Shown here piece after piece: positions 12,086 through 59,883 of a stretch of 64,000 nucleotides of DNA. Below the pieces are notes generated by a model that was not told the origin of the DNA, did not search any database, and was given only the letters and a program-made list of their open reading frames with translations. The stretch is from Endozoicomonas sp. G2_2. GTDB lineage: Bacteria; Pseudomonadota; Gammaproteobacteria; Nevskiales; Salinisphaeraceae. Every line of letters begins with the position of its first letter. Positions within the stretch are counted from its first letter, which is position 1. A program made the position numbers and the translations under genes. The stretch is from NCBI RefSeq assembly GCF_017744135.1, contig NZ_JAGHQU010000013.1, positions 1 through 64,000 on the forward strand, written 5' to 3'.

Positions 12086-12156
12086 GATGTCCTTCCTGTT
12101 CAGTGGCGGCCGATACCAGGGGCCGCGTGCATGGGCAGTCTGAAGACTGCAGATAA

Positions 12157-12190
12157 ATAAAAAGCCGCTCGGGAACCCGTAGCGGCTTTT
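12157..12190 (-). terminator. Terminator of the tRNA-Val transcript
   Basis: On the minus strand AAAAGCCGCT, an 11-base loop and AGCGGCTTTTT are followed by ATTTATC. The stem is nine to ten base pairs with a U tract, a textbook Rho-independent terminator. It comes directly after the duplicated tRNA 3'-end segment, so the tRNA-Val precursor would carry a structured trailer of about 210 bases. It also insulates thrS. Confidence 0.85.
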
Positions 12191-12196
12191 CTATCG

Positions 12197-12225
12197 TCTG
12201 GTAGGCGCGAGTGGATTCGACCACC
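12197..12225 (-). repeat. Duplicated 3' end of tRNA-Val
   Basis: This segment repeats the T-arm and acceptor end of the tRNA-Val gene at 12371 onward, including the encoded CCA, with a single-base deletion in the T loop (GGTGGTCGAATCC against GGTGGTTCGAATCC). It lies 145 bases downstream of the tRNA on the same strand, just before the terminator. Confidence 0.85.
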
Positions 12226-12306
12226 CCGCGCAGCGGGGTGACGCGACCGCAGGGAGCCCGAAGGGCCGGCTTCTTAGAAGCCGGCAACCCCGACCCGAAG
12301 GGTCGG
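12222..12306 (-). repeat. Hairpin array in the tRNA-Val trailer
   Basis: Three strong inverted repeats follow each other: CACCCCGC/GCGGGGTG (12222-12240), GCCGGCTTCT/AGAAGCCGGC (12265-12285) and CCGACCC/GGGTCGG (12290-12306). Together with the duplicated tRNA tail they make the trailer between tRNA-Val and its terminator highly structured. I see no coding capacity in it. Confidence 0.7.
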
Positions 12307-12370
12307 TGGTGAGAATCCCTGCCATCGCCGTGATGTCGAGCCACGGCACTTACCGCATCCACATAGAATC

Positions 12371-59217: not shown

Positions 59218-59495
59218 AAACAGCCAACCGGCGTCGCTGGCTCGTTTTCTTGAGATACGGCGTGTGCACGAGGAGTGGTCCACCGTCGGTGACAATACCA
59301 ACCCCGCGTGTTCGGGCTGAGATCAACTGAATCAGGCGCGCTCTTTGCGACAACCCGTATTCGTTTTGGAGTTCAGGACGAACTTCGCGGATCGCGTCAA
59401 GTATCGAGTGGCCCTCTTTCGATGCCGCGCGCACGTGAAACAGCAGAGCGCACACAGTGAAGAGACTTGGCGCGATGTTGCTACAAGCAAGCCAG
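59218..59495. other. Intergenic region after the DUF924 gene
   Basis: About 280 bases between the DUF924 stop and the first tRNA-Arg trailer repeat. Overlapping short frames exist on both strands, but none has family similarity or a ribosome-binding site. It may include degraded copies of the downstream repeats; I cannot support a gene. Confidence 0.4.
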
Positions 59496-59595
59496 TTCGC
59501 GGCTGCGCCGCTTACTCCGCGGTTCGGATTCGCAACGCGAATCCGTCGAACCAACATCGTTCGTCTGTCGCAGGTTCGACCCTCGATACAGAACC

Positions 59596-59630
59596 ATGAA
59601 TAAGAGCGGTCGTTGACCGCTCTTATTCAT
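59596..59630 (-). repeat. Long palindrome of the distal trailer unit
   Basis: ATGAATAAGAGCGGTC, a three-base loop and GACCGCTCTTATTCAT make a perfect 16-pair stem. It repeats the palindrome found at the tRNA 3' end. Confidence 0.85.
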
Positions 59631-59633
59631 AGC

Positions 59634-59648
59634 GCCCCGAGCAGGAGT
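59634..59648 (-). repeat. Copy of the tRNA-Arg 3' end
   Basis: ACTCCTGCTCGGGGC on the minus strand repeats the 3' T arm and acceptor strand of tRNA-Arg. The following bases are GC rather than A-CCA. It marks the junction between trailer units. Confidence 0.8.
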
Positions 59649-59769
59649 ATTCGCGGCTGCGCCGCTCACCCTTCGGGCCCGCGTCGCTGCGCTCCGCGGT
59701 TCGGATTCGCAACGCGAATCCGTCGAACCAACATCGTTCGTCTGTCGCAGGTTCGACCCTGGATACAGA

Positions 59770-59810
59770 ACCATGAATAAGAGCGGTCGTTGACCGCTCT
59801 TATTCATGGT
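59770..59810 (-). terminator. Palindrome at the tRNA-Arg 3' end, possible terminator or processing signal
   Basis: ACCATGAATAAGAGCGGTC, a three-base loop and its exact complement give a perfect 19-pair stem that overlaps the encoded CCA. In RNA the hairpin would begin within the tRNA's own 3' end. It lacks a run of U after the stem, so it may be a processing or stability element rather than a terminator. Confidence 0.6.
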
Positions 59811-59883
59811 GCCCCGAGCAGGAGTCGAACCTGCGACCTGCCGCTTAGGAGGCGGCTGCTCTATCCTGCTGAGCTACCGGGGC
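59807..59883 (-). tRNA. tRNA-Arg (CCT)
   Basis: A complete 77-base cloverleaf: acceptor GCCCCGG/TCGGGGC with one G-U pair, anticodon stem GCCGC/GCGGC around CTCCTAA (anticodon CCT), T arm GCAGG-TTCGACT-CCTGC and encoded CCA at 59807-59809. It decodes the rare AGG codon. An unusual trailer of tandem repeats follows it. Confidence 0.97.

Follow-up and report, generated by a model that had tools for sequence, protein, structure and literature searches.

The window, the whole 64,000-nt stretch of DNA analysed here, carries a gene for tRNA-Arg(CCT) that is followed, on the minus strand, by two tandem repeat units of the RtT type. The parts of this array are listed below. R1 is a covariance model built from an alignment (A1) of 30 units, which extends from K-12 rtT to Salinisphaera relatives and takes in many Gammaproteobacteria; K-12 rtT is among its rows, and sequence from the host genome was excluded. 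The model R2 represents the core alone, with the tRNA-derived flanks left out.

59807..59883, minus strand: tRNA-Arg(CCT), host gene of the array (ARAGORN; Rfam RF00005, 67.1 bits)
59824..59837, minus strand: 5' strand and loop of the tRNA T-arm (GTCGCAGGTTCGAC), the complement of the antisense segments
59770..59810, minus strand: palindrome H1, 19 bp, starting from the discriminator base, with ACCA paired with TGGT; a design conserved in relatives
59630..59806, minus strand: unit 1, 177 bp, the sole complete RtT-type unit (R1 match at 59630-59778, 74.8 bits, E 3.7e-18)
59744..59757, minus strand: antisense T-arm of unit 1 (GTCGAACCTGCGAC)
59648..59722, minus strand: RtT core module, hairpins P3-P6, with a CGAATA end and then the tRNA 3' copy (R2 match, 83.2 bits, E 3.8e-17)
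59702..59722, minus strand: hairpin P3, CGGATTCGC-gtt-GCGAATCCG
59664..59679, minus strand: conserved GGCCCGAAGGGTGAGC with hairpin P5 (CCC/GGG)
59634..59648, minus strand: copy of the tRNA 3' end, 15 nt (ACTCCTGCTCGGGGC)
59630-59632, minus strand: CCA of the tRNA 3'-end copy, decayed to CTA
59596..59630, minus strand: palindrome H2, 16 bp
59567..59580, minus strand: antisense T-arm of unit 2
59495..59629, minus strand: unit 2, truncated, lacking P4, P5 and the tRNA 3' copy (partial R1 match at 59503-59577, E 0.005)

The two units form a direct repeat of 134 nt (59515-59648 and 59692-59825) with 98% identity and a spacing of 177, and in both the reverse complement of the tRNA T-arm is present, exact over 14 nt (59744-59757 and 59567-59580). 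Read in the sense of the tRNA, unit 1 runs from H1 through a 13-nt spacer, the antisense T-arm, a loop, GGTTCGAC, hairpins P3-P6 and CGAATA to the tRNA 3' copy. A preliminary description of this DNA had reported two tandem units with a period of 177 behind tRNA-Arg(CCT), palindromes of 16 and 19 pairs, an overlap of the tRNA-adjacent palindrome with the CCA, and a copy of the tRNA 3' end at the unit junction, and all of these features hold; H1 takes in the CCA together with the preceding base, and the copied CCA now reads CTA. By its layout, each complete unit is made up of a palindrome starting with the NCCA of the tRNA, an inverted copy of the tRNA's own T-arm, a hairpin core, and a second copy of the tRNA 3' end, in direct orientation, in which the core occupies the place of the T-loop.

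Occurrence of the module

The host genome, probably of the genus Salinisphaera, is a draft assembly of 33 contigs (3.73 Mb, 45 tRNA matches), on which copy counts depend. Searches of it with blastn, R1 and R2 found the RtT-type module behind eight tRNA loci and found no copies at non-tRNA sites. The same layout recurs behind tRNA-Arg(CCG), tRNA-Arg(TCT), tRNA-Arg(ACG), tRNA-Gln(CTG), tRNA-Gln(TTG), tRNA-Tyr(GTA) and a decayed second tRNA-Arg(CCT), and sister loci retain an intact CCA in the tRNA 3' copy. All 16 R1 matches with E<1e-4 are tRNA trailers, matches on contig C3 being counted as the continuation of the tRNA-Arg(ACG) array, and all 15 matches from the core-only search with R2 lie in tRNA arrays, the best of them being the core in the window (83.2 bits). 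Weak blastn matches on C7, C8, C11 (502 kb), C22 (86 kb), C27 (97 kb), C28 (55 kb) and C30 contained no units on reading. The tRNA-Arg(ACG) array runs to the end of C28 (L013), and the same unit sequence opens C3 (L012); since both contigs break inside it, this array is probably longer than assembled. A second trailer in the window, that of tRNA-Val(GAC) (12156..12370, minus strand), has an antisense T-arm of 10 nt (12301-12310) and a 3'-end copy of 24 nt (12199-12222), and its core-like part is weak and seemingly in the opposite orientation (R1 E 0.11, plus strand).

A same-strand tRNA lies no more than 320 bases upstream at 54 of 57 RF00391 loci; two of the remaining three are cut by a contig end, and the third resembles a tRNA-Ser broken by a core in its T-loop. 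A search of the phylum with R1 was positive in 66 of 397 genomes, other classes included, and every one of the 29 fresh loci that it gave is behind a tRNA (Tyr 10, Ser 7, Gln 3, Arg 3, Lys 3, Asp 2, Glu 1). The copied 3' ends match their own tRNA at 16.6 of 18 positions, as against 11.4 of 18 for other tRNAs. The window array also lies behind its tRNA on the same strand, and is probably co-transcribed with it.

The core also occurs elsewhere. At L124, L187, L283 and L297, tRNA-Tyr or tRNA-Ser (pseudo)genes have the core directly in the T-loop, and look as if their T-arm had recombined with the direct copy of a unit. An RtT-type unit lies behind tRNA-Ser(GCT) in a Ca. Auribacterota MAG, outside Pseudomonadota (L130 3595-3738, 70.8 bits). 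In Rhodanobacteraceae-type genomes, the core is found at non-tRNA sites in dispersed palindromic repeats of the GTCATTCC type (L102, L105, L108, L127, L128, L134 and others). These have the same hairpin core between GA and ATCC, but differ from the window units in being dispersed and in lacking both tRNA copies and P1. The preliminary description had named scattering at many non-tRNA sites as the mark of a dispersed element; such scattering is absent from the host genome by BLAST, R1 and R2, whereas the core itself is dispersed in the Rhodanobacteraceae-type genomes.

Relationship to E. coli rtT

When genome contigs were scanned with the conserved core as a pattern, 44 stretches emerged, from Salinisphaera, Rhodanobacteraceae, Ectothiorhodospiraceae, Alteromonas, Legionellaceae, Enterobacteriaceae and one Ca. 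Auribacterota MAG, among others. The same core motif is present in K-12 tyrTV, where its Rfam name is RtT (RF00391); a search of the literature by sequence motif gave no match to the core. RF00391 itself gives the window unit 15.8 bits, under the curated cut-off of 45. Against the host genome it yields 15 matches at E<=10, of which the first 12 are all tRNA trailers and the best scores 43.6 bits; it exceeds the cut-off in 8 of 14 genomes of the genus (best 75.4 bits) and reaches E<=1e-3 in 65 of 370 genomes of the class. Alignment A1 is continuous from K-12 rtT to the Salinisphaera relatives, that is, one family, and R1, from which the host genome was excluded, gives the window unit 74.8 bits (E 3.7e-18); the array is thus a case of the descent (or spread) of one module and not of independent invention. 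By profile comparison, the window array is a divergent RtT-type variant and a homologue of E. coli rtT, and is not filed as a member of RF00391 because of its score of 15.8 bits against the cut-off of 45.

In K-12 tyrT, RF00391 matches lie at 911, 1089 and 1267 of L095, and are thus 178 bp apart, and the rttR RNA, annotated at 1287066-1287236, has its end precisely on the CCA of the copied tRNA end. E. coli rtT is the rttR RNA, which is freed from the tyrT transcript as a stable product of about 171 nt; in E. coli SK1144, tyrT is without repeats. The architecture shared with tyrT, which the preliminary description had pointed out, is therefore real, but its statement that the sequence is unrelated to the E. 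coli repeats does not stand against the single family of A1 and an R1 E-value of 4e-18. Like E. coli rtT/rttR, the window has tandem units (177 bp, against 178 bp in E. coli) behind a tRNA, with copies of the tRNA 3' region in both orientations, P2 and a weak P1, the core GGCCCGAAGGG.GAGC, CGARTA followed directly by ATCC, and a terminal copy of the tRNA 3' end, though with its CCA decayed. Unlike E. coli rtT, it has an Arg host and scores below the RF00391 cut-off, its antisense is extended to 13-14 nt over the 5' strand of the T-stem with P1 reduced, and it has TC in place of the tandem GA; the NCCA palindrome, in turn, was not seen in the K-12 sequence.

Among other known systems, the Actinobacillus pleuropneumoniae RNAs Arrc20 and Arrc21 are RtT family members near other tRNAs (Asn and Lys) and were detected on northern blots; unlike the window array, they are described upstream of tRNA genes, and the sections of that report drawn on here describe no tandem array or tracking of the tRNA (PMC4986893). 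BIME-type repeats upstream of gatY, rbfA and cvpA share the similarity to rtT, but lie outside tRNA trailers and were proposed to be attenuators (PMC2965389). The RtT-type variant is broader and more regular than is described in the portions of the literature searched.

Structure and correspondence to the tRNA

The predicted RNA fold of unit 1 is far more stable than that of shuffled sequence (z -5.4). Across the family, 86.6% of the cells of P1, P2, P5 and P6 are paired, versus 73.4% after shuffling, and the covariation score is 0.336, versus 0.118 for shuffled alignments and at most 0.12 for slid structures, these counts being of cells and not of independent events. P1 is formed by the inverted tRNA copy pairing with the direct copy; its pairing is 81% within units, and 61% when strands are swapped between different tRNAs. 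In P4-P6, G-U pairs outnumber A-C by 52 to 16, with most of the excess coming from helix P5, where one pair is dominant. Both the helices and the agreement with the local tRNA are conserved in the sequences.

At the place between P1 and P2, 22 of the 30 family rows have GA in the inverted copy, facing GA, in agreement with the tandem GA motif that has been reported for RtT (PMC7657543), and 6 of the 30 have TC. The motif is missing in the window unit, where TC/GA, a Watson-Crick combination, stands at that place. The window unit has P2 and P4-P6, and P1 is weak in the Arg type (70% paired, versus 85% for other tRNAs). In the Salinisphaera Arg arrays, where P1 is weaker, the inverted copy instead covers the 5' strand of the T-stem, so that arrays of Arg CCT, CCG, TCT, TCG and ACG carry antisense segments of 13-14 nt that are exact to their own tRNA. 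On inspection of the copies, the last five or six antisense bases find a partner strand only in the tRNA and none within the unit.

The palindrome of Salinisphaera Arg sense units starts nearly always from the discriminator base, with NCCA paired with TGGN. It is 17-20 pairs long, and between species its sequence is wholly different. In 28 distinct sense palindromes, to which this comparison was restricted, mirror readings being left out, departures from Watson-Crick pairing comprise 25 G-U, 4 A-C and 18 others; such an excess of G-U over A-C is expected if the RNA strand in tRNA sense matters. The discriminator-starting palindrome that pairs NCCA and the 13-14-nt exact antisense to the tRNA's own T-arm are new to the present variant.

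Many palindrome copies, that of the window included, have no U-tract, and a plain terminator therefore fails to explain them; a long processing duplex would do so. Strong U-tracts occur in some sister copies (the third unit of Arg CCG, and Gln CTG). No promoter or U-tract terminator was recognised near the window unit, and no classical intrinsic terminator was scored in the window.

Discussion

We suggest that the array is probably, though by no means certainly, a divergent RtT-type tRNA trailer that is co-transcribed with its tRNA and processed into an rtT-like RNA. This is the best reading because rttR ends at the copied CCA and because RtT RNAs have been seen on northern blots. The array would be transcribed as the 3' trailer of tRNA-Arg, and its long NCCA-starting hairpins would serve as processing sites, possibly as duplexes of the RNase III type. 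Cleavage at the hairpins and trimming to a tRNA-like 3' end would then yield the tRNA and a small structured RNA, much as rttR comes from the tyrT transcript. More speculatively, the freed RNA, as a mimic of the tRNA 3' end that carries an antisense T-arm, might influence the maturation of tRNAs or control related to them; a connection between rtT and the stringent response is mentioned, at second hand, in the passages of the two reports considered here (PMC4986893, PMC2965389). The window unit itself may have lost the ability to yield a proper 3' end, since its copied CCA has decayed to CTA.

Previous work has mostly regarded rtT as a side product of a single E. coli tRNA operon. The present results describe instead a module that occurs widely across the phylum (R1 is positive in 66 of 397 genomes), is tied to no fewer than seven tRNA isotypes among the loci searched, and is built from copies of the local tRNA, both inverted and direct, which stay matched to it. 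With several natural copies per genome and predicted partners for them, the function of rtT becomes testable, and tRNA trailers become tied to a family of dispersed hairpin repeats.

This last tie is also the basis of the strongest alternative, a selfish hairpin DNA element, BIME/REP-like or of the HUH type, whose insertion point is GA^ATCC within palindromic sites. Copies of the tRNA 3' end would offer one such site in their T-loop (TTCGA^ATCC), the arrays would grow by unequal crossing-over, and any RNA product would be a by-product. The core does lie between GA and ATCC both at tRNA copies and in the dispersed GTCATTCC-type repeats, and L134 contains a core-free repeat of the same kind (GCGGGAATCCAG, compared with GCGGGA-core-ATCCAG). 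There are 26 core matches in G406 and 22 in G407, mostly dispersed among those inspected, and the broken tRNAs with the core directly in their T-loop fit insertion as well, as does the report that rtT-like sequences of E. coli are part of BIMEs (PMC2965389). On the other hand, the Salinisphaera core is never away from tRNAs, behind tRNAs it almost always has the same orientation, the sequences of P1, P2 and the antisense track that of the tRNA, the excess of G-U over A-C indicates an RNA strand, and a non-systematic look linked no transposase to the core. As an account of the array, we hold such an element to be somewhat unlikely. An origin from one is nevertheless quite possible, given the core in dispersed Rhodanobacteraceae-type repeats and the rtT-like sequences in BIMEs, and is compatible with a present-day function of the RNA.

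It is also conceivable, if improbable, that the array is a self-directed switch, in which the palindrome locking NCCA and the antisense to the tRNA's own T-arm would refold or block precursors of that tRNA, so that a read-through transcript, or the freed RNA in trans, would target one tRNA. The idea comes from folding the tRNA and unit 1 jointly: the preferred structure joins the T-arm to the antisense and the 5' acceptor strand to the downstream copy of the 3' end (z -8.35). Such a fold is the basis for the idea and not evidence that the refolding occurs, and folding during transcription would normally give the tRNA precedence. If true, a trailer RNA would exert feedback on one specific tRNA, and the device would be built anew for each tRNA when the module moves.

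We consider it a little more doubtful still that the NCCA-starting palindrome is the only working part, as a terminator or 3'-processing hairpin, with the rest carried along. The palindrome keeps its design (17-20 bp, from N73) under full turnover of sequence between species, and some copies have strong U-tracts, but the best-conserved part across the phylum is the core, even in species without such a palindrome, and the window palindrome is one of those without a U-tract. Finally, the recurrent, convergent origin of trailer RNAs that the preliminary description had proposed finds a footing in the low Rfam score of the window unit, yet an independent invention of the rtT-like architecture is highly improbable, given that the alignment and profiles join one family through intermediates and that a model without host genome sequence reaches E 4e-18.

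Two minor observations concern tRNA sequences. Rfam "Plastid-ycf2" matches proved to be the antisense of tRNAs. Outside the window, 8.6 kb beyond its tRNA-Arg(CCT), lies a decayed second tRNA-Arg(CCT) (contig C4:68198-68561, L009) with two RtT-type units, in which trailer sequence replaces the 3' half of the tRNA.
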